DNA of 32,497 nt, from positions 1 to 32,497 of the forward strand of contig JAIULZ010000034.1 of assembly GCA_022565805.1 (NCBI GenBank). The letters are read 5' to 3'. This stretch comes from Balneolales bacterium. Lineage in GTDB: Bacteria > Bacteroidota > Rhodothermia > Balneolales > Cyclonatronaceae. The translations under genes were made by a program, and so were the position numbers. Shown here piece after piece: positions 4,077 to 32,366 of the stretch. The notes below the pieces were generated by a model. That model searched no databases. It saw nothing but the letters and a program-made list of their open reading frames with translations, and was not told where the DNA came from. The stretch's first letter is position 1. Every line of letters starts with the position of its first letter.

Positions 4077-5168
4077 TTAGTGCGCTGCGTGTTGTACTTC
4101 TGCACCATGATGTTCGTCGTGATGGCTGTGATCTTCCAGAGCCAAGCCGATAAACAGTGCAGAGAACATGGTAAAGATATATGCCTGAAGGAATGCAGCG
4201 AAAACCTTTAAAGCATAGATAAATAAAGTGAAAGGAACCCAAACCACAGAGGATAATAAACCGAGGGTAGGCCCGTACAAGCCGGCAAAGATAAAAATCA
4301 TTCCAAGCATGCTAAGAATTAGCATTTTCCCGGATAGCATGTTGGCAAACAAACGGATAGCAAGTGCAAATGGTTTTGTGAACAAACCTAATACCTCAAC
4401 CGGTATCATAATAATGAGCATAAACTTTGGAATACCCGGCATTGCAAACACGTGCTTCCAATAATCCTTGGTACCATTCAGATTAACCATCAGGAAAGTC
4501 ATAAATGCGAGGGCAGCCGTAATCGAAATATCGGATGTTGGAGTTTGGCCCCATGGCGCCAAACCGAACAAATTCATGAATAAAATCATGAAAAAACAGG
4601 TTAGCAAATATGGTGCAAACTTCATGTACTTATCGGCACCAACGTTGGATTTAACAACTTCGTCGCGTATGTAGGTAATTAAAACCTCTGCAAAGTTCAT
4701 ACCCGCGCCTTTTGGAGCGCTTTTTTGACCTATACCTGATTTATATTTTGAGGCTAACCGGCCAAAAATAATGAGCGTTAAAAAACCTGCAAGCCAAAAC
4801 CAAATCACGTGCTTGGATAGTGACATATCCAGAAAAATCGGGCTACCATCGGCATGAACCAGTTTATAGGTTACAGGACCAGATACACCTGCTATAAAAG
4901 TACCAGGATTGTCGATATAATATTGATCCTGAAACAAGCCACTATTCATGGCACTTTTTGTACTGCCAAAAACATGAACACCTTCAGACACAATGATACG
5001 TGGCAGGTAAAATGTACCAATCCCTTCAAATTGAATATAGTAGCGATCCCCCAGTTTGCCTATTACGTCGATATCGCCGTAATTTTTTTCTTCTGCAGCA
5101 ATGGCTTTGTTATCAGCCAGTAAAAGCACAAATAATACTAAAAACAGCGTGCGAAGAGCTTTAGTCAT
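4077..5168 (-). CDS. atpB: F1Fo ATP synthase subunit a
   Basis: Stator channel subunit that passes protons to the c ring. The 363-residue protein starts with a likely cleavable signal peptide (residues 1-25, ending AIAA) and about 90 further residues outside the membrane, an extension typical of Bacteroidota-type subunit a and absent in E. coli. The core follows from about residue 120, with the essential arginine at 272 in ALAIRLFANMLSG and the conserved Gln328 in AAFLQAYIFTMF. The C-terminus ends in a histidine-rich tail (residues 347-363, seven His). The first eight bases overlap the end of the preceding AtpI-like gene, so translation is probably coupled. It is followed by atpE after 56 bases. 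Confidence 0.97.
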   Translation of the reverse strand: MTKALRTLFLVLFVLLLADNKAIAAEEKNYGDIDVIGKLGDRYYIQFEGIGTFYLPRIIVSEGVHVFGSTKSAMNSGLFQDQYYIDNPGTFIAGVSGPVTYKLVHADGSPIFLDMSLSKHVIWFWLAGFLTLIIFGRLASKYKSGIGQKSAPKGAGMNFAEVLITYIRDEVVKSNVGADKYMKFAPYLLTCFFMILFMNLFGLAPWGQTPTSDISITAALAFMTFLMVNLNGTKDYWKHVFAMPGIPKFMLIIMIPVEVLGLFTKPFALAIRLFANMLSGKMLILSMLGMIFIFAGLYGPTLGLLSSVVWVPFTLFIYALKVFAAFLQAYIFTMFSALFIGLALEDHSHHDEHHGAEVQHAAH

Positions 5169-5553
5169 TACTAAATGGTTGCGGGTTTTTATCTTTAATT
5201 TTCAATACAAAAATAATTTCCAGTACAGATTTGCTAATATAAGAAATAAACAAACTAATAGTGAAACTTAAAGTTGGCAAATTTGTAAAGAATACGACAA
5301 TCATAACGGCGATCAGCATTATGAGTAATCTTAAGCCCATGCCCCCCATTACCCGAATCATAAATGCATTATTACCTGCATGAATTCCATCTGCGGCAAA
5401 TTTTAGCGCCGCAACCGCATTCGCACTTGTAATGATTAGGGCAAGAACGAATCCGGGGAAAACATTATGCTGAGTATATATCTCAAAAAGCCACGCTGCT
5501 ACAAGTAAAACAGCATTAATGAGCGCCAAGCTAATAAAAAAAGACTTCCACAT
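5161..5553 (-). CDS. Small four-span membrane protein, AtpI-like
   Basis: The 130-residue protein is mostly hydrophobic, with about four predicted membrane spans (around residues 5-24, 33-50, 70-90 and 95-118) and a polar C-terminal tail (KIKDKNPQPFSND). Size, topology and its place directly upstream of atpB match the AtpI/UncI group of assembly or c-ring helper proteins. I see no strong sequence signature, so the assignment rests largely on context. Its end overlaps the atpB start by eight bases. A more cautious name would be hypothetical membrane protein of the atp operon. Confidence 0.7.
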   Translation of the reverse strand: MWKSFFISLALINAVLLVAAWLFEIYTQHNVFPGFVLALIITSANAVAALKFAADGIHAGNNAFMIRVMGGMGLRLLIMLIAVMIVVFFTNLPTLSFTISLFISYISKSVLEIIFVLKIKDKNPQPFSND

Positions 5554-7402: not shown

Positions 7403-8716
7403 TTACTTTCTGCTGATTTTGTTTAACACATCAGCAAGAGCAAAAGCAATATTACGACGATTGTATTTTTCGTAGGCTGTATCTGATAATGCCTTTTTTT
7501 TCAGTTCAGACAAGTTTTCAATAATATAAAGAAGTTGTGCCGAAACTGCGGCTGCATCATCCGCAGGTGATCGGAAACCTGCCTTAAGCTGTTCAAGAAG
7601 CTTTGAAGCCTCTCCATTTTCGGGTACAAGTCCTAAAATGACTTTGCGCATGCCAATATATTCAAATATTTTGCCAGGTGTCACCTGTTCAGAGCTTTTT
7701 TTATGGCCTACTACAAACCAAAGTATATCAGCCAAAGCTAAGCCCTTACAAGCTTCTTTATGCGTAAGATATCCGGCATCCTCAATCAAGCTATCTATTC
7801 CTGCCTTTTTAGCCCACACTTTACTTTCCTTGGGTAACCCGCCTTGAAAACGAAGCTTTATTTTTTTGCTCCATTCAGGATGTTGAACAATCAAGCTATG
7901 TACCGCTTCCAAAAAAACATCCGGCTGGTTTTCTCCGTAAAAAATGCCATTATATAAAATTGTAATTTTCGAACCAGACTGCAGTTTATGCGATTCTGCT
8001 TTAATATTTGTGGGATTGGCGGGCAACTCCAGGTCTTCGGGATCATAGCCTTGTGAGATAACCTCAAACAAAAGATCATCCCGCTTATTGCGTTTTTTTA
8101 ATGAATCCAGCATCGCTTTATTTATCGCAATGATGGCATCTGCTTGCTTAAGACACTCTTTTTCTAAACGCAACATTTTACGCTGATGCAGTTTCGTAGG
8201 ATACTTTATAAGATGACTCGCATACCAATCGTCTCTGAAATCCAGCAAAACCGGTATACCATACCTTCTCTTTATTTCGGCAGCAATAAGATGGTTACTA
8301 TATGGAGGAGCTGATGAAAATACGGCATCTATTTTTTGGGTTTCAATTATTTTCGCGGCGGCTTCCAACGCGGGTTTTATCCATGCTTTCTTATTATCCG
8401 GCAAATAAATAGCAGACGAAATTAACCGCAAAGGTTCCATAAGCCAATCAGGCAGATTACCCAATGCTTTGCCACCGCTTCCTTTTATGTGCAATGGCGT
8501 ATTTGCCTGTACTCTATGAACTTCAATTGAAGGCTCAATGCGATTAAGCTCTTCCTCCAAGCTATCATCAAAATGAGTGTAAAAGCCGGGTTCGGGAGCT
8601 ATAACAACTGGTTTCCAACCGTATTTTTGAAGATACTTAATAAACTTAAGTGGTCTTTGCACCCCGGACGAGCCCATGGGCGGGAAGTAATAAATTACAC
8701 ATAGTACAGTTTTCAT
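7403..8716 (-). CDS. Glycosyltransferase, GT4-like (GT-B fold)
   Basis: The 437-residue protein has the two-lobed GT-B arrangement. The N-terminal lobe opens with YYFPPMGSSGVQRPLKF, the glycine-containing acceptor loop common in family 4, and contains DFRDDWYAS. The C-terminal lobe shows ITILYNGIFYGENQ, then a nucleotide-sugar binding region PGKIFEYIGMRKVILGLVP with the glutamate pattern expected of retaining GT4 enzymes. No membrane span is apparent. Donor and acceptor cannot be told; an envelope or exopolysaccharide role is a guess. It lies 40 bases after guaB and 39 before the M23 peptidase gene, on the same strand. Confidence 0.88.
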   Translation of the reverse strand: MKTVLCVIYYFPPMGSSGVQRPLKFIKYLQKYGWKPVVIAPEPGFYTHFDDSLEEELNRIEPSIEVHRVQANTPLHIKGSGGKALGNLPDWLMEPLRLISSAIYLPDNKKAWIKPALEAAAKIIETQKIDAVFSSAPPYSNHLIAAEIKRRYGIPVLLDFRDDWYASHLIKYPTKLHQRKMLRLEKECLKQADAIIAINKAMLDSLKKRNKRDDLLFEVISQGYDPEDLELPANPTNIKAESHKLQSGSKITILYNGIFYGENQPDVFLEAVHSLIVQHPEWSKKIKLRFQGGLPKESKVWAKKAGIDSLIEDAGYLTHKEACKGLALADILWFVVGHKKSSEQVTPGKIFEYIGMRKVILGLVPENGEASKLLEQLKAGFRSPADDAAAVSAQLLYIIENLSELKKKALSDTAYEKYNRRNIAFALADVLNKISRK

Positions 8717-23851: not shown

Positions 23852-24235
23852 TTAAGAATTCAAAATATCAATAACATCTTGTTTGGAAAGTGGTTTGGTA
23901 TAAAACTTTATAATTGCGGGGTAAGATTGGCTTTTGATTCTATCGCTCTCATCGGTAGATGAGGTAACAATATAAAACTGCAGATTATCAATGCTTTTGA
24001 GACTTATTTTTTGCAACTCATCTAAAAAACCCCAAGCATCTAATACCGGCATATTTATGTCTAAAAGCACAATAAGGTGCTCTAACGGGCTTTTAAGGTT
24101 TTTTAGATACGATAAGCCGACTTCTCCGTTTTCAAACTGATAGCAAATAGCAGATGCATCAACAATCTGTATCATTTTCTGTAAAATAATTCTGATTATA
24201 GGGTCGTCATCTATAATCAGTACTGTTTTGTTCAT
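23852..24235 (-). CDS. Single-domain response regulator (CheY-like)
   Basis: The 127-residue protein is a receiver domain alone. The acidic cluster IIDDDP (Asp9-11), the phospho-accepting Asp59 in LLDINMP, the switch residue region IVTSSTDESD and the conserved Lys114 in YTKPL are all present, so it should be phosphorylated. There is no output domain. Its ATG directly abuts the stop codon of the receiver-DHp gene upstream. It is the last clear gene of the signalling cassette. A role as shuttle or sink in a phosphorelay, or binding of a protein partner as CheY does, is inferred. Confidence 0.93.
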   Translation of the reverse strand: MNKTVLIIDDDPIIRIILQKMIQIVDASAICYQFENGEVGLSYLKNLKSPLEHLIVLLDINMPVLDAWGFLDELQKISLKSIDNLQFYIVTSSTDESDRIKSQSYPAIIKFYTKPLSKQDVIDILNS

Positions 24236-24871
24236 TTAATTTATGGTTTGTGCTTCATTAACTATTTTCTGCACCACTTCATCCATTTCGTTGGTGGAGT
24301 TTCTCAAATGTTTTAGCCAAAAAAGCATCTCTTGATGATCTTCTGGGTTTTCCTCAATCAAGTTCATAATTCCTAATATTCTTGCAAGCGGTGCGCGAAC
24401 AACGTGCGACTGAGTCCATGCAATGTTTTTAAGCTTCTCATTTTGTCTTTCAATTTGTCTTACATAGCTGCTCCGGCTTATGGCAAACTCAATACTCTTG
24501 TGTAACAAGGCGGGATTGACCTCATCTTTCACCAGAAAATCGTAGACGCCTAACTCTAAACTTTTTTTGGCAAGGGGCAGGTCTGCATAACCTGTTAAAA
24601 TGATTATTGGAATTAGGGAGCTTAATGAAATCATATTTTTTACTAAGGTAAGCCCGCTTACATCCGGCAAGTTCAAATCGAGTAATATCAGATTACTATT
24701 ATGGTTTTCTTCTTGTAAAAAGTAAGACACTGATTTATAGTCTGTGAATTGCCTGATTGAAATCGATTCAAATTTTTCGATCAGGTAATCTTCAATTAGC
24801 ACAAAATCTCCGGGATTATCTTCAATCACGATAATTGACAATCCCCCGCTGTAATCTTTTTTGCTTTCCAT
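24236..24871 (-). CDS. Receiver domain fused to a kinase-like DHp helix pair
   Basis: The 211-residue protein (ATG start) has a receiver domain at about 11-130, with IEDNPGD, phospho-acceptor Asp65 in LLDLNLPD and Lys115 in FLVKDE, then a helical segment 138-211. That segment contains AWTQSHVVRAPLARILG with His156, an H-box like that of HisKA kinases, but no ATP-binding domain follows. It may thus accept or pass phosphoryl groups rather than autophosphorylate. A longer reading from TTG at 24904 would add 11 residues and overlap the preceding gene by 31 bases; I prefer the ATG, two bases after that gene's TAA. The next receiver gene abuts it. Confidence 0.85.
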   Translation of the reverse strand: MESKKDYSGGLSIIVIEDNPGDFVLIEDYLIEKFESISIRQFTDYKSVSYFLQEENHNSNLILLDLNLPDVSGLTLVKNMISLSSLIPIIILTGYADLPLAKKSLELGVYDFLVKDEVNPALLHKSIEFAISRSSYVRQIERQNEKLKNIAWTQSHVVRAPLARILGIMNLIEENPEDHQEMLFWLKHLRNSTNEMDEVVQKIVNEAQTIN

Positions 24872-24873
24872 AT

Positions 24874-25299
24874 TTAATCTGCTAATGTTGACAACTGTAG
24901 CCAAAAATTCTCGATCTTTAAAATTGCATCCAAAAATTCATCCATATCGAGAGGCTTTTTGACATAGCTGTTACAATGGTTTTCATAAGCTTTGTCTATA
25001 TCCTTTTGGTTAGACGAGGTTGTTAGCATAATTACCGGAATCTTTTTAAGAACATCATCCTGTTTAATTTTGCCCAACACCTCATGCCCGCTAAATATTG
25101 GAATATTAATATCTAACAGAATTAAATCTGGTTTTTTAGATTCTTCAAATTTTCCTTTTCTGAATAAATAGTCTAACGCTTCCTGCCCGTTTCGAACTAC
25201 GCTTATTTTAGTTTTTACTTTACTTTCTTCGAATGCATCAAGGGTAAGGATAATATCTCCCTCATTATCTTCCACTAATAAAATATGTGCTGTCTTCAT
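24874..25299 (-). CDS. Single-domain response regulator (Rcp1-like)
   Basis: The 141-residue protein is a lone receiver of the Rcp1 type often paired with phytochrome and multi-PAS kinases. It shows LLVEDNEGD (Glu10, Asp11, Asp15 region), phospho-acceptor Asp63 in LLDINIP, MLTTSSNQKD and the conserved lysine in YVKKPLDMDEF. The insert after LFRKGKFEES is typical of this subfamily. I start it at the ATG at 25299, four bases after the upstream kinase stop; a longer frame reaching 25386 would overlap the kinase and lacks homology-like sequence. No output domain is attached. Confidence 0.93.
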   Translation of the reverse strand: MKTAHILLVEDNEGDIILTLDAFEESKVKTKISVVRNGQEALDYLFRKGKFEESKKPDLILLDINIPIFSGHEVLGKIKQDDVLKKIPVIMLTTSSNQKDIDKAYENHCNSYVKKPLDMDEFLDAILKIENFWLQLSTLAD

Positions 25300-25303
25300 A
25301 TAA

Positions 25304-26455
25304 TTATATATAAAATCGGTGTTTTGGAATGGTAAAGTAAAACTCTGATCCTTCTCCCGGTTCAGACTCAAGCCATATTTTCCCACCCCAGGATTCCACG
25401 TGCTTTTTAGCTATAGACAGGCCGATACCAGTACCTTCGTACTGCCCTTTGTTGTGTAGTCGTTGAAAAATAACGAAAATCTTTTCATGAAACTGCTGTT
25501 CAATACCAATTCCATTATCAGCTATTTTAAATTCCCAACAACTACTAAGACTATTCACCGATACGGTAATTTTAGGGGTTTGACCTTCTTGGGAGTAATA
25601 AATTGCGTTGTCGAGGAGGCAGTGCAGGGTCTGTATTAATGGTGCCTTGTACGATTGTAATTTAGGCAGACTTTCGCTGTGTATGGCAACCGATTTTTCG
25701 CTAATTACTTTTTTTCTAAGGGCCTTGTAGTTCTCCACCAACTCATTTAAATCTACAGTTACTTTTGCTCCCGTAAACTTTCCCGCTTTGGAATATTCCA
25801 GCAAATCCAAAATAATTTCTCTCATCCTAATTGCACCATCAGTAGCAAAGTTAATGTATTGATGTGCTTTTTCATCCAATTGATTCTGGTATTTTTGCTT
25901 CAATTTATCCATAAAGCTGGTAACCATACGCAGGGGCTCCTGCAAATCATGTGAAGCAATATAAGCAAACTGCTCCAACTCCAGGTTTTTAGACTTTACT
26001 TCGTCAATTGATTTTTTAAGCTCCATATTTGTTGTGCGAACAGACTCAAGCAATTGATTCTTTTCTTCAAGTACTCTTTCTAACTTTGAAAAAAAGAAAG
26101 GAATGATTAAAGAAAACACAGCTGACAAAAACAATACATTTGATGATACGGCAATCCATTCCGTTACGTAGTTTTCATGCATTGCCTGTATTTCCACATA
26201 TTTAATATGAATAAGAAATCCATATAGAGTACAGAATAGCAGCGTAAGTATAAAGGGTACAGATGTTTTTGTACCAGGAAAAAGAAGTAAACTTATTACA
26301 GTGGCAGAGAGCAAGTAAACTAACCCGGGGCCAAAAGAACCTAACTCTTTTAAAGAACATAGGTTGTTAATAATACTAAAGATATCAAAATTATCTTCCG
26401 GGCTTTTACAGATATACCTGGAGCATAACCAACAAAAATTAAGAGCAGTATACAA
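25304..26455 (-). CDS. Histidine kinase, catalytic part of a frameshifted gene
   Basis: Open frame of 383 codons. Only from about codon 34 (LKELGSFGPG, near 26354) does it look like real protein: three membrane spans, a coiled coil, then HisKA with the phospho-accepting His169 in YIASHDLQEPLRM, and HATPase_c with LLDNAI (N box), IADNGIGI (G1) and GTGIGLSI (G2). The first 33 codons overlap the end of another frame (26350-26661) that encodes the missing upstream spans, so both are parts of one kinase broken by a single-base shift. If rejoined, a protein of about 450 residues with six spans and no recognised sensor domain results. Its catalytic core nearly duplicates that of the neighbouring multi-PAS kinase. 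Confidence 0.85.
   Translation of the reverse strand: MYTALNFCWLCSRYICKSPEDNFDIFSIINNLCSLKELGSFGPGLVYLLSATVISLLLFPGTKTSVPFILTLLFCTLYGFLIHIKYVEIQAMHENYVTEWIAVSSNVLFLSAVFSLIIPFFFSKLERVLEEKNQLLESVRTTNMELKKSIDEVKSKNLELEQFAYIASHDLQEPLRMVTSFMDKLKQKYQNQLDEKAHQYINFATDGAIRMREIILDLLEYSKAGKFTGAKVTVDLNELVENYKALRKKVISEKSVAIHSESLPKLQSYKAPLIQTLHCLLDNAIYYSQEGQTPKITVSVNSLSSCWEFKIADNGIGIEQQFHEKIFVIFQRLHNKGQYEGTGIGLSIAKKHVESWGGKIWLESEPGEGSEFYFTIPKHRFYI
25322..25978 (-). repeat. Duplicated kinase core, copy 1
   Basis: This 657-base segment, coding for HisKA plus HATPase_c of the frameshifted kinase, matches 26691-27347 without any length change. By hand the two protein segments differ at about 50 of roughly 215 positions, so about three quarters of residues are identical. 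It points to tandem duplication or gene conversion. Confidence 0.85.
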
Positions 26456-26661
26456 AAGACATCAAACCATAAAATCGAATAGGATTGAGTATGGATGGTA
26501 ATGTATAATGCAGGAATGATAGCTATTAAACTGAGTGGCGCCAGTATAAACACGCACCTCGCAAATACTACCTCACTCCAATACGCCAGTGTTGCTGAAT
26601 CTCTATCTTTAGAAATACAATTCCGTTCTACAATATCCCTCAAGTTTTTTATGATTTTCAT
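26350..26661 (-). pseudogene. N-terminal membrane part of the frameshifted histidine kinase
   Basis: An open frame of 103 codons starting 11 bases after the multi-PAS kinase stop codon. It encodes a short cytoplasmic N-terminus (MKIIKNLRDIVERN) and three hydrophobic segments (about residues 33-56, 64-82 and 90-103), then stops in the middle of the third at YVL. Shifting one base at this point joins it to LKELGSFGPGLVYLLSATV in the next frame, which completes the membrane domain. One T missing from a short T run (plus-strand A at 26352-26354) would explain it. Either the gene is broken, it is expressed as two parts, or the base is a sequence error. Confidence 0.75.
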
Positions 26662-26672
26662 GGGATAGTATT

Positions 26673-29600
26673 TTAAATAGAGAGTTCTTTTTTAGGAATA
26701 GTAAAATAAAATTCAGACCCTTTTCCCGGCACAGACTCCAGCCATAATTTGCCACCCCAGGAATCCACGTGCTTTTTAACTATAGACAGGCCGATACCCG
26801 TACCTTCGTAATGCCCCTTATTATGTAATCGCTGAAAAATAACGAAAATCTTTTGATGAAAGTTTGGGTCAATTCCGATGCCATTATCAGCTATTTTTAT
26901 TTCCCAAAAATCGCTCAAATTGTTCATAGAAACAGTAATTTGGGGTGATTCTGATTCTTTGGAATAAATAATTGCATTGTCGAGAAGGCAGTGCAAGGTT
27001 TGTGTTAATGGTGCCTTGTACGATTCCAGTTTTGACAGTTTATCCATTTTTATCTGAACTGATTTTTCCTGAATTATTTTTCTCCTGAGAACCTGATAGT
27101 TCTCAATTAATTCATTTAAATCGATCGTTTCTGTAGCTTCTGTGAACTTACCCGCTCTGGAATATTCCAGCAGATCCAAAATAATTTTCTTCATTCGCTT
27201 TGCTCCATCGGTTGCAAAGTAGATGTACTGAAGCGCCTTTTCGTCTAATTGGTTTTCGTATTTCCGCTTTAATTGATCCATAAAACTAGATATCATTCTA
27301 AGCGGTTCTTGTAAATCGTGTGAGGCTATATATGCAAACTGCTCTAGCTCTTCATTCGTAAGTTCTAATTCGCGAGCGTGTTTTTTTAGCGAAGCGTTTA
27401 ATTCTAAAAGTTGTTGTTCAAATTGCTTACGCTCAGAGATATCGGTCATTGCACCAACCATTCGTATGGGTTTTCCCTTGTGGTCTCTTATTATAATCCC
27501 TCTGTCTACCACATTGGCATACGAATCGTCGTTTCTTTTATAGCGATATTCGGCAATCCAGTTATAACCGTTCGTTTTTTCAAGTAAATTATTCATTCCG
27601 CGAACAACCCAATCTTTGTCATCCGGATGGATAAAAGCAGTCCATGATGCGATAGTCGGCGGAAGTTTATCAACCTGATATCCAAAAAGGGTTTTGTAAC
27701 CTCCTCCCCAATAGAGCGTATTTTCTGCGATATTCCAATCCCAAATAGCATCATTAGTAGCTTCGGTTACTTTTTCGAAACGTTCGTTCGCTTGTATCAG
27801 ACGAATATCGGCTTCTTTTCGCAAGCTTACATCTTTGAAATAAACAGACAGGCCCTCATCTGTAGGATAAATAGTTACCTCAATCCATTTATTTACAGCA
27901 CTATTGTAATCCTCAAAACTAACCGTTTCTCCGGTTTCCATTGCCTTATGGCTCTGTCTGTAAAAATCTGTATCAACGGCTTCCACAAACAAATTCCAGA
28001 GATTATCTCCAATTAACTCGTCTCTTTTGCGCTCAATAAAGTTTTCGGCTTCTTTATTCCAATAAGTGATGATCCAGTTTTTGTTAACCGTAAAAAAAGC
28101 ATCTCCAATACTTTCCAGAATCTTGTTTTTTTCTTCATAGGCTTTTTCAAGATTTTGCTTGGCCTTTTTCCGCTCATCGATATTTTTAAAATACGCAGAA
28201 ACTCCCCCCTGAAAAGGATATGCATTGATTTCATACCATTTTTCATCACCGGGGTAAAAATATTCGAATGATTCTGACTTTCCGGTTTCGCTCACATTAT
28301 AATACACTTTTTGAATGAGCGTACCTTTTGCTGCAGGGAATAACTCCCAAATATTTTTCCCCAGTACATCATCAGCTTTTCGTTCAAGCAGGTTCTCCGC
28401 TTCCTTATTGAAATATGTGAAGTTCCAGGCTTTGTCCATAGCGTAAAAAGCATCTGATATACTTACCAGAATTTCCCGAATCTTTATTTCAAGAGATTTA
28501 GAAGTATGTATGTCCTGAAAGCTTCCATAGATTTTTACACATTTACCATTAACCCGTTCGCTTTTGCCGATACACCTTATCCATTTTTCTTTTCCGGAAG
28601 AGGTAACAATAAGAAGCTCTTCATCAAATTCTCCTCCTTCCTGAATTAATTTTTCGACCGCTTTTTGGATACGCTGCTTATCCTCCTCTGTGTAGAATTC
28701 AAACCCTGCGGTGAGGGATGGATTATAATTTTCGTCTACTTCCAATATTTCCCTGGTCATGGCAGACCAATACATATTTTCATTCTCGTTGGAGATCAAA
28801 TCCAGTTCCCAGCTGCCTATTTTTGCCATTTCACTTGCTTGCTCTAAAAGGGCTTCATTTTGGGCTTCTTGCGTAATATCTAATACAACTGAGTTGTATA
28901 ATACAGTACCATCGGCCATAAAAATTGGGGTACCAGTTCCCAGGAGTGTTCTAATTTTACCACTTGGAGAAATACTCTTGTATCGCGAAACCCACTTCGA
29001 TTTCGTTTTAATTGATTCTCTGATACTTTGCTTTACATCATCAAAATCACCACCGGCCTTAGTTTGATCCCACACTAAATCAATATTTGCCATTACCTCC
29101 TCAGGGCTGTATTCCCAAATCTCATAGGCTCCTTTAGTAACATATTTAAGGGCATCTGTGCCATCGGGATACACAAAGTATTGAAATACCACACCCGGCA
29201 AATTATCTGCCAGAGACTGCAGGCGTAGCTCAGCTTCTTTTCTTTCGTTGATATCCTGAAAGCTACCGTATATACGTTGGCACCTCCCATCTATCATTTC
29301 GGCATTACCAATTGCCCTTACCCATTTTTCATTTTGTTTAAGGGTTACCAAGACTGCTTCAAAATCGAAAGGAACACCTGTTTTAATAGAATTTTGCACT
29401 AATTCTGCTACTTTTTCCCGAAAATCTTCCCGGTATAAGTTAATGGCCGTTTCCAAGTCTGGTCTAAATTCTTTTGGGGAGGTCTCGTGAAGCTCATAAA
29501 CCATATCTGACCAGAACAGGCTTTTTTGGGTTACACCAATTTCCCAACTGCCAATTTTGGCCAATTTGGAGGTCATACGGTTAAGCTCTCTTAGTTTGTT

Positions 29601-32366
29601 TTCTTCGGTAATATTTTTAGCAGAAGCGTATATGAGCCCTTCTTCTAACGCAGAATTACAGGTCCAGCTCAACCAAACAATCTCTCCTGTTTTGGTAATG
29701 TAGCGGTTTTCAAATTTGAATATTCTTTTACCCGCAGCCAGATTCATCACTTCATTAAAAGAAAGATCCTTATCCTCGGGATGCACAAATTCATTAAAAG
29801 AATTATATAGAATTTCTTCCTCAGAATACCCCAGCAATGTACACCCTGCCTTGTTAATTTTTAAAAACCTGCCTCTGAAATCCGTCAAGCAGAGTATATC
29901 AGGTATAGCCTCATACATATGGCTTAAGTCATTTTCTAACCGTTTACGGTTTATCTCAGAACCAATAAACGGCTCCAGTTCCTTAAAAACGCCTACGTAA
30001 CTTTTAAGGCAACTTACCTTAAGCCTCGAACCAATTACCAAAACCCCAACTACACTTTGGCTAAAAAGTAAAGGCAATCCTAAAGCCGTATTTATCCCTG
30101 CTTTTCTGGCTGCTACTTTTCGGATAAAGTCATTCTTTTCAGACACGTCTTCCCATAAAAGCATCGACCTTGTTTGTAAAACATTACCTTGTAATCCGGC
30201 AAAGATAGGAGCAGAGCTTATCGAATTACTTTCTCTATAAAATAATTCAGCGTTTTCGGACGTAGCATTTTGAGCAGTCAGCAAGATTTGCGTGTTCTCA
30301 ACATTAGGTAGCCATAGCTCAGCAAAATCGAAGTCTCCAAATTCACTTATTGTTTTACAAAGGTTACCGGCAGACGTTAGCAGGTCGTTTTCAAATGAAA
30401 AATCCCTGCTAATTTTATGTAAAATCTCTTTCTTAATTTCATTATTTTTTTGCTCCGTTACATCTCTTTCGATAGCTATCCAATGTGTGTAGCATCGTTT
30501 TTTGTCTGCAACAGGAGTTACAGTAAAGTTGATCCAAAACTCTTCGCCATTCTTTTTATAGTTAATCGTAGTGATTTCACAAGATTCCCAATTTCTAATG
30601 GCTCTGCCAAGCCTTGCCAGTTCTGATTTATCTGATTTTGGACCCTGTAAAATTCTTGGAGTTTTCCCAATAACTTCATCGGCAGTGTAACCTGTCATTT
30701 TAGTAAATGCTTCATTTACATACAGAATTCTTGGGCCGGGCAGATCAAAAGGCTCCGCTTCTGTTATTAAAATTGAATCTTTCGTGTTTGTGATAACACT
30801 TTCCAGCAGTTTTAATCGGTGCTCTTCCTCTTTTTGTGATGTGATATCTTCGCAGATAGCCACAGTGCGATAAGGTTTGCCTTTCTCATCTCTGATAAAC
30901 GCAACGTGAAGCCGAACCCAAACAATGCTGCCATCTTTTTTTATGTATCTCTTATCGTTTCTGTATTCCGATTCACCGCGCATAGCTTTTGAAAAAATTT
31001 CCCAATCTTTTTCCCTATCGTCGGGGTGGGTAAGTTCTACAAAGCTCATTTTATGGAGTTCTTCCCTTGTATAGCCTGTAATAATCTCATAATAGGAATT
31101 CACCAAAATAATTTGGCCATTCGAGGGGTTAACTTGTGCAATGCCGAGAGATGCTATCTCAAAAATAGTTCTGAATCTTGCCTCACTTTCGCGCAAAGCC
31201 TTTTCAACTACTTTACTTTTTGTTATATCCTGTGTAAGTATAGCTATATCATTACCCATAGGCACAATTACCAGCCGGAGCCATGTAGGAACCGAAACGA
31301 TATCTCCCACATAAACTTCATCTATTATCTTGGATTTACCTATGTTTGCAACATCTTTGTAAGCTTGAAAAAGTTCTGTTTCATAGTGTGCAGGGAAGAC
31401 TTCCAGAAGCCGTTTACCAACTGCGTTAGCTGGTTCAATACCGTTAATTCGCGCAATAGCCTCGTTCTGATAAACCCATGTAAAGTCGATAATCTCCTGT
31501 TTTTCATTACGCAGAGGATGCATTATAGTAAATCCATCGGGAGATATTTCCTGAGCAATTCTGAACCTTTTCTCACTATCCCTAAGTTTTTCACTTATTT
31601 CGTTCAGTTGCAGCTCGGCTTCTTTATGTTTGGTAATATCCTGAACGGTTCCCTCTATGGCTGTAGGTTTTCCATTTTCATCCTTAACCAATCGTCCTAG
31701 TTCATGCACCCATCTAATACTTCCATCCGGCAAAATTATCCGATGGATAAAATTGAGCTCCTTTTCACCGGCAACCGCTACGTCCTGCTCCCTTAAGAAT
31801 GCTTCTCTGTCATCAGAATATATAGTTTGGAAAAAGTTCTCGAAATGAATTGTAAATAAATCTCTTTCTCTGCCCCAAATCCTGTAGACTTCATCTGACC
31901 ATGAAAGCGTGTTGGCAGCGAGTTCCAGCCGCCAGTATCCCAATTTGGCAATTGCTGAAGCCGCCTTTAGGCGTAGCTCAGATTCTTTAAGCTGCCTTAC
32001 ATGCTCTTCTTCTATGGTTACATCCTTACAGATCACCATCATACAGATCTTATCTATATAAGATACTTTATGACCATTGATTTCCATCCGGATTAGTTCA
32101 CCATTCTTTTTCTGATGGGTGAAAATACCAAAGAAAATATTCCCTTCCTTTTTATCAATATCTACATGGGCTGCAACCAATTTAGGAATTTCTCCGGTTG
32201 GCCGAAGATCTTTTAGGGTAAACGTTAAAAACTCTTTTTTTGAGTATCCATAGTGCTTAGTGGCAGCCTCATTTACATCAAGAATTCGAAAAGTATCCAA
32301 ATCATACACCCAGGAAGGTATAGGATTAAGGTAAAATAGACTGCTGTAATTTGGCTGTTTATCCAT
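26673..32366 (-). CDS. Soluble multi-PAS/GAF sensor histidine kinase
   Basis: A 1897-residue kinase without membrane spans. By eye the domains are: PAS at about 5-130, 131-256, 257-393, 394-518 and 519-646; GAF at 647-815; PAS at 816-929, 930-1049, 1050-1175, 1176-1296, 1297-1415, 1416-1528 and 1529-1650; then HisKA with phospho-accepting His1683 (YIASHDLQEP) and HATPase_c with Asn1797 (LLDNA) and the G box at 1827 (DNGIGI). That makes twelve PAS and one GAF domain. Many PAS units end in the DIT-type linker (VQDITKHK, CEDITSQK, FQDINERK). PAS 5 has GKTPRILQGP, like LOV domains but without the flavin-binding Cys. No receiver is fused to it, so phosphate probably goes to the receivers encoded downstream. 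The next gene starts 11 bases after its stop. Confidence 0.94.
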   Translation of the reverse strand: MDKQPNYSSLFYLNPIPSWVYDLDTFRILDVNEAATKHYGYSKKEFLTFTLKDLRPTGEIPKLVAAHVDIDKKEGNIFFGIFTHQKKNGELIRMEINGHKVSYIDKICMMVICKDVTIEEEHVRQLKESELRLKAASAIAKLGYWRLELAANTLSWSDEVYRIWGRERDLFTIHFENFFQTIYSDDREAFLREQDVAVAGEKELNFIHRIILPDGSIRWVHELGRLVKDENGKPTAIEGTVQDITKHKEAELQLNEISEKLRDSEKRFRIAQEISPDGFTIMHPLRNEKQEIIDFTWVYQNEAIARINGIEPANAVGKRLLEVFPAHYETELFQAYKDVANIGKSKIIDEVYVGDIVSVPTWLRLVIVPMGNDIAILTQDITKSKVVEKALRESEARFRTIFEIASLGIAQVNPSNGQIILVNSYYEIITGYTREELHKMSFVELTHPDDREKDWEIFSKAMRGESEYRNDKRYIKKDGSIVWVRLHVAFIRDEKGKPYRTVAICEDITSQKEEEHRLKLLESVITNTKDSILITEAEPFDLPGPRILYVNEAFTKMTGYTADEVIGKTPRILQGPKSDKSELARLGRAIRNWESCEITTINYKKNGEEFWINFTVTPVADKKRCYTHWIAIERDVTEQKNNEIKKEILHKISRDFSFENDLLTSAGNLCKTISEFGDFDFAELWLPNVENTQILLTAQNATSENAELFYRESNSISSAPIFAGLQGNVLQTRSMLLWEDVSEKNDFIRKVAARKAGINTALGLPLLFSQSVVGVLVIGSRLKVSCLKSYVGVFKELEPFIGSEINRKRLENDLSHMYEAIPDILCLTDFRGRFLKINKAGCTLLGYSEEEILYNSFNEFVHPEDKDLSFNEVMNLAAGKRIFKFENRYITKTGEIVWLSWTCNSALEEGLIYASAKNITEENKLRELNRMTSKLAKIGSWEIGVTQKSLFWSDMVYELHETSPKEFRPDLETAINLYREDFREKVAELVQNSIKTGVPFDFEAVLVTLKQNEKWVRAIGNAEMIDGRCQRIYGSFQDINERKEAELRLQSLADNLPGVVFQYFVYPDGTDALKYVTKGAYEIWEYSPEEVMANIDLVWDQTKAGGDFDDVKQSIRESIKTKSKWVSRYKSISPSGKIRTLLGTGTPIFMADGTVLYNSVVLDITQEAQNEALLEQASEMAKIGSWELDLISNENENMYWSAMTREILEVDENYNPSLTAGFEFYTEEDKQRIQKAVEKLIQEGGEFDEELLIVTSSGKEKWIRCIGKSERVNGKCVKIYGSFQDIHTSKSLEIKIREILVSISDAFYAMDKAWNFTYFNKEAENLLERKADDVLGKNIWELFPAAKGTLIQKVYYNVSETGKSESFEYFYPGDEKWYEINAYPFQGGVSAYFKNIDERKKAKQNLEKAYEEKNKILESIGDAFFTVNKNWIITYWNKEAENFIERKRDELIGDNLWNLFVEAVDTDFYRQSHKAMETGETVSFEDYNSAVNKWIEVTIYPTDEGLSVYFKDVSLRKEADIRLIQANERFEKVTEATNDAIWDWNIAENTLYWGGGYKTLFGYQVDKLPPTIASWTAFIHPDDKDWVVRGMNNLLEKTNGYNWIAEYRYKRNDDSYANVVDRGIIIRDHKGKPIRMVGAMTDISERKQFEQQLLELNASLKKHARELELTNEELEQFAYIASHDLQEPLRMISSFMDQLKRKYENQLDEKALQYIYFATDGAKRMKKIILDLLEYSRAGKFTEATETIDLNELIENYQVLRRKIIQEKSVQIKMDKLSKLESYKAPLTQTLHCLLDNAIIYSKESESPQITVSMNNLSDFWEIKIADNGIGIDPNFHQKIFVIFQRLHNKGHYEGTGIGLSIVKKHVDSWGGKLWLESVPGKGSEFYFTIPKKELSI
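26691..27347 (-). repeat. Duplicated kinase core, copy 2
   Basis: Second copy of the 657-base kinase core, at the 3' end of the multi-PAS kinase gene. The similarity starts at LEQFAYIASHD and stops at TIPK, so it covers exactly the catalytic module and not the sensor parts on either side. Confidence 0.85.

Follow-up and report, generated by a model that had tools for sequence, protein, structure and literature searches.

A five-gene phosphorelay-type cassette from a Balneolales bacterium and a DHp subfamily without a CA domain in Bacteroidota

A CA domain is taken to be indispensable for histidine kinases, whose DHp domains dimerise. To our knowledge, the known kinase-derived phosphotransferases retain a CA remnant. 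Receivers of the Rcp1/RcpA family are the terminal partners of phytochrome kinases. Phosphate shuttling by a kinase-derived protein has a precedent in the relay that runs from the Paks through SdrG and PhyT to PhyR (PMC5898713); that source cites Spo0B and ChpT as further precedents. An acidic residue at H+1 of the phospho-accepting histidine serves autophosphorylation, and Thr, Asn or Glu at H+4 serves phosphatase activity, which Ala at H+4 diminishes; the Cph1/DrBphP-type core follows the rule of an acidic H+1, Glu at H+4 and Arg at H+7 (PMC8292422).

The window, that is, the whole stretch of 32,497 nucleotides analysed here, is the entire contig C34 of a Bacteroidota genome of 4.47 Mb. Its minus strand carries, from 32366 to 23852, the consecutive genes HK1, HK2 (broken), REC1, REC-DHp and REC3, with all parts on the same strand and intergenic gaps of 11, 4, 2 and 0 bases. 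This agrees with an earlier note on the same DNA, which had described a single-strand cassette at 23852-32366 with gaps of at most 11 bases. The features are as follows:

26673..32366, minus strand: HK1, a cytosolic histidine kinase of 1897 aa with 12 PAS, one GAF, HisKA and HATPase_c, core of Cph1/DrBphP type (Pfam domain scans, sequence)
26350..26661, minus strand: first HK2 fragment, 103 aa, the initial part of the MASE11 membrane domain (MASE11 positions 1-72), then a stop
25304..26353, minus strand: second HK2 fragment in a different frame, with the remaining MASE11 (78-168), a coiled coil, and HisKA and HATPase_c matches
24874..25299, minus strand: REC1, a lone receiver of 141 aa, Rcp1/RcpA (phytochrome response regulator) type by its match to PDB 1k68 RcpA (E 8.8e-33)
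24236..24871, minus strand: REC-DHp (P0003), 211 aa, the receiver REC2, a continuous helix and a bare DHp hairpin (His156), without PAS and without CA (domain scan, alignment, AlphaFold2)
24404..24406, minus strand: codon of the predicted phospho-accepting His156, motif AWTQSHVVRAPLARI, invariant in an alignment of 26
23852..24235, minus strand: REC3, a lone receiver of 127 aa that directly abuts REC-DHp, of the type that is a conserved neighbour of CA-less DHp proteins (domain scan, locus comparison)

In HK1, ten segments match the PAS model when tested singly and two more are covered by the whole-protein scan, and the GAF domain scores 28.0 bits, just below the Pfam cut-off of 28.6; the twelve PAS and one GAF reported earlier are thus present. 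The idea that the module may integrate many signals is drawn from this PAS count. The cores of HK1 and HK2 both carry SHDLQEPLR, with Asp at H+1, Glu at H+4 and Arg at H+7, together with HATPase_c matches, which by the residue rule assigns both to the Cph1/DrBphP type. The same Asp and Glu occur in all 36 readable Cph1-type kinase cores of the module loci. At 76% identity, the HK1 and HK2 cores are each other's closest relatives in the sample, the next ones (67-69%) coming from a Flavobacterium MAG, and this points to an origin by local duplication or conversion.

The second kinase, which the earlier note had read as one gene with a membrane sensor, carries a disrupting frameshift within MASE11 at about 26353. 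A stop at 26350-26352 closes the 103-aa frame, and the rest of MASE11 and the kinase core resume in the other frame, in an ORF ending at 25304; on the intact MASE11 kinases of two relatives (L048 and L049), the halves cover adjoining stretches. The frameshift represents either real decay or a sequencing or assembly error. Programmed frameshifting is unlikely, as the junction (GTT CTT TAA AAG) is not an in-frame X XXY YYZ slippery site, and an RF2-type +1 shift would give the wrong frame. Because the gene is frameshifted, a working membrane sensor input is not supported. A second broken kinase occurs in a module of this type at L080, where an in-frame TAA (8217-8219, genome G258) lies within the kinase core of the PAS kinase.

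The catalytic residues, as read from the sequences, are complete in REC1, REC2 and REC3. By its similarity to solved Rcp proteins, its full set of catalytic residues and its lack of an output domain, REC1 is classed as an Rcp1/RcpA receiver. Domain scans found no effector domain in any cassette protein, as had been claimed. Read in the direction of the genes, the contig starts 131 bases upstream of HK1, so that the far operon side lies beyond its edge; within those 131 bases, each of the three forward frames contains a stop.

The relatives of REC-DHp in the alignment are REC-PAS-DHp proteins of 327-362 aa, with two more of about 585 aa that carry extra PAS domains. The window protein is the only one among them without a PAS domain, which is missing in frame and with alignable flanks, and by this comparison it derives from the REC-PAS-DHp type through loss of the PAS. 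The CA domain reported as absent is genuinely so: the chain ends 55 aa past His156, and no CA or HATPase_c domain is present. An AlphaFold2 model built from 26 sequences (pLDDT 92.8) shows alpha5 of the receiver continuing into DHp helix 1 (residues 120-157, a kink, then 159-174), followed by helix 2 (179-208). The assignment as a DHp hairpin is based on this predicted hairpin and kink, on the phospho-acceptor His, which is invariant in 26 of 26 aligned proteins, and on a profile match to DHp chains of kinases in the PDB (E 3.5e-7). At H+1 the protein has Val, not the acidic residue of HisKA kinases. The first PDB match in a Foldseek search was LvrB (8vc9), a REC-DHp-CA kinase; the VIA-align coverage lay mainly in the REC half, and missing matches to other DHp domains are uninformative there. 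After beta4, REC2 and its relatives show [T/S]GY in 20 of the 26 sequences (counted by eye in the alignment), a motif that is not exclusive to intermediary receivers. A similar FATGUY-like motif after beta4 has been reported in intermediary receivers (PMC9981736).

What is new here is mainly the subfamily to which this DHp belongs. A DHp profile (A4) was run on 15 genomes, and the complete sequences of most matches were read alongside the module loci. Of the distinct proteins matched, 66 have a readable SH motif and score above 40 bits. Every one of these ends 51-85 aa after the histidine; six weaker matches (32-38 bits) continue for at least 207 aa, which leaves room for a CA domain. Since the profile was built from CA-less proteins, it is biased toward them, and the point of this count is that the DHp subtype coincides with CA loss. 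By these measures the DHp of the window belongs to a separate subfamily, in which the chain stops just behind the hairpin and CA is absent. In these 66 proteins, H+1 is acidic in 15 and non-acidic in 51, H+4 is Thr, Asn or Gln in two, and H+3 is Arg in every one. With the CA domain and the autokinase and phosphatase residues mostly lost, and the histidine and the H+3 Arg kept, phosphotransfer is the activity that the anatomy allows. Most likely, the CA-less DHp would pass phosphate along and would not use ATP.

The N-termini of the CA-less proteins comprise REC-PAS, PAS/GAF arrays, and TPR or propeller repeats. In a sample of the phylum, 36 of 392 Bacteroidota genomes had a DHp match at E <= 1e-14; strong matches number four in the genome of the window and up to 11 in one sampled genome. 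A REC3-type receiver directly follows 23 of the 66 proteins, and these 23 include a few that are not of the REC-PAS-DHp type. Such a receiver also stands behind the CA-less DHp proteins of L139 (1-1740) and L140 (1492-3015), whose N-termini are of the propeller/Y_Y_Y or TPR type. At L033 (9932-10183), an 83-aa open frame encodes almost the DHp hairpin alone, and stand-alone bare DHp proteins may thus exist. We found no description of CA-less DHp proteins of Bacteroidota in a search of open-access literature.

The gene order also recurs in relatives, where the earlier note had proposed to look for it. A PAS kinase, an Rcp1-type REC1, a REC-(PAS)-DHp protein and REC3 lie in this order on one strand in the window and at 14 further Bacteroidota loci, or 13 when a nearly identical pair from Mesonia is counted as one, which is beyond chance. 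These loci are L030, L031, L032, L035, L080, L082, L083, L106, L107, L109, L110, L111, L112 and L116, and further loci show the order in part. Two or three tandem kinases occur at L082, L083, L108 and L111, and at L048 and L049 a MASE11 kinase stands between the PAS kinase and REC1. In about thirteen loci, a REC-PAS-DHp gene has no adjacent REC3 on the same strand. Five loci (L041, L042, L044, L048 and L049) have a longer REC-PAS-containing protein in the REC-PAS-DHp slot. Where Pfam was run (L041, L042 and L048), this third-slot protein carries HisKA_2 and HATPase_c after its REC and PAS domains, so a CA-less protein is not a feature of all clusters of this kind.

Neighbouring genes of the relatives vary by locus and include oxidoreductases, an ABC transporter, Wzi, a Na+/H+ antiporter and DUFs. 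No output-domain regulator was found beside the module in ten Pfam-scanned flanking genes of relatives or in the flank survey, and the notion of an output-less module with a conserved order withstood this examination; neither of the two counter-cases named in the earlier note, an output-domain regulator in the operon and a gene order missing from relatives, turned up in the DNA covered. In contig C124 of the genome of the window (L034), a REC-PAS-DHp paralogue (4269-5345) overlaps or adjoins the gene of a Na+/H+ antiporter (PF03553, 2468-4300). The same pair is found in the congeners G004 and G005 (L045 and L046), in which the receiver lacks the phospho-accepting Asp, so that phosphate entry via REC2 is impossible there. 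The antiporter was rejected as a general output because it follows REC-PAS-DHp in C124 and in G004/G005 but not at the four-gene modules.

In a concatenated tree, the window module falls in a clade with Flavobacteriaceae modules with 100/100 support, away from the module of the congener G003, and within what was examined the other four congeners have no four-gene module. Horizontal transfer of the window module is likely on this evidence. The GC content of the cassette is 0.377 versus 0.416; third-position GC overlaps that of other genes and is nearly the same as elsewhere in the window. Base composition was therefore dropped as evidence, and the transfer argument rests on the tree.

Taken together, we infer a direction of phosphate flow, its partners and its output, and assign a probability of roughly 0.5 to a branched phosphorelay without an output domain of its own, in which kinase phosphate would reach both REC1 and REC2 and then pass from REC2 through the DHp histidine to REC3. 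HK1, and the HK2 core if it is made, would autophosphorylate and phosphorylate REC1 and the REC2 of REC-DHp. REC2 would give its phosphate to the histidine of the bare DHp hairpin, which would hand it to the lone receiver REC3, and REC1 and REC3 would act by binding to proteins encoded elsewhere. If the relay ran in reverse, the DHp and kinase phosphatase activity would drain REC3. Since REC1 is Rcp1-like, the kinases match the Cph1/DrBphP type and REC3 follows CA-less proteins, the pairings of the kinases with REC1 and REC2 and of the DHp with REC3 are likely. The family-wide CA loss and the REC3 adjacency lend further weight to a role of the receiver-DHp protein as a hub, as suggested earlier, or as a shuttle. 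Gene order is a matter of association, not of the direction of flow, and common descent, as opposed to independent events, accounts for part of the conserved adjacency.

Two other readings are unlikely. REC1 itself may be the shuttle, taking phosphate from the kinase to the DHp and thence to REC3, as from Spo0F to Spo0B or from SdrG to PhyT, with REC2 serving as an allosteric gate only. In most loci REC1 is a lone receiver encoded beside REC-DHp, the DHp is retained in L045 and L046 despite the Asp loss in their receivers, and PhyT offers a precedent (PMC5898713); however, REC1 is a member of the Rcp1/RcpA family, has no [T/S]GY motif and, unlike REC2, is not physically fused to the DHp. Alternatively, the CA-less DHp may be a pseudo-kinase that carries no phosphate and acts by binding to receivers or to kinase dimers, by titration or in heterodimers. 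The absence of CA, the lack of autokinase and phosphatase residues in most members, the degenerate receivers of some relatives and the pseudokinase precedents in the literature fit this reading, but a pure binding module would need neither the invariant histidine nor the H+3 Arg.

That the copy in the window represents inserted foreign DNA undergoing decay, which may do little in this strain, is quite improbable. The HK2 frameshift, the PAS loss in REC-DHp and the fully supported grouping with Flavobacteriaceae apart from G003 would suit such a fate; against it, HK1, REC1, REC-DHp and REC3 have intact frames with no catalytic residue missing, the PAS domain was lost without a change of frame, the break in HK2 may stem from faulty assembly and the third-position GC is hardly distinct. 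Mixed dimers in which the CA domain of HK1 or HK2 would phosphorylate the bare DHp directly, for which the capacity of DHp domains to dimerise and the encoding of all partners in one tight cluster might speak, are very improbable, given that the kinase DHp (SHDLQEPLRM) and that of REC-DHp (SHVVRAPLARI) differ greatly and that the prevalent non-acidic H+1 would slow ATP-driven phosphorylation (PMC8292422).

Beyond the branched relay, a wider proposal is tentative: some Bacteroidota may possess a layer of "gated phosphotransferases", in which sensors wired to a bare, ATPase-less DHp would govern how phosphate moves between receivers and not how it is produced; the module of the window would be a member gated by a receiver alone. 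The sensor types found on bare DHp hairpins are receivers, PAS arrays of up to about 1,500 residues, and TPR or propeller domains. If this proposal is true, the CA-less subfamily means that phosphate transfer can itself be a target of sensing. The PAS-less window protein of 211 residues is a small and convenient object for an in vitro test and for structure determination.

Among known systems, Spo0B, ChpT and PhyT share with the window protein a kinase-like DHp that moves phosphate between receivers without ATP-driven phosphorylation (PMC5898713, PMC3433190); for the window protein this activity is predicted. Unlike them, the window family keeps no degenerate CA-like domain and has no residues left for one, and its DHp is fused to a receiver here and to PAS or a long PAS array in relatives. 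The modelled continuous helix between REC and DHp resembles that of LvrB, a Rec-controlled histidine kinase (PMC13269768), but LvrB possesses CA and is capable of autophosphorylation. The SHDLQEPLR box of the kinase cores and the matches of REC1 to RcpA (E 8.8e-33) and Rcp1 (1.4e-29) recall the Cph1-Rcp1 and DrBphP-DrRR pairs, but the inputs are PAS/GAF and MASE11, with no phytochrome photosensor found, and REC-DHp and REC3 are added. In canonical HPt phosphorelays (His-Asp-His-Asp), the chemistry would be the same, with an HPt four-helix domain in the place that a DHp-type hairpin would take here.
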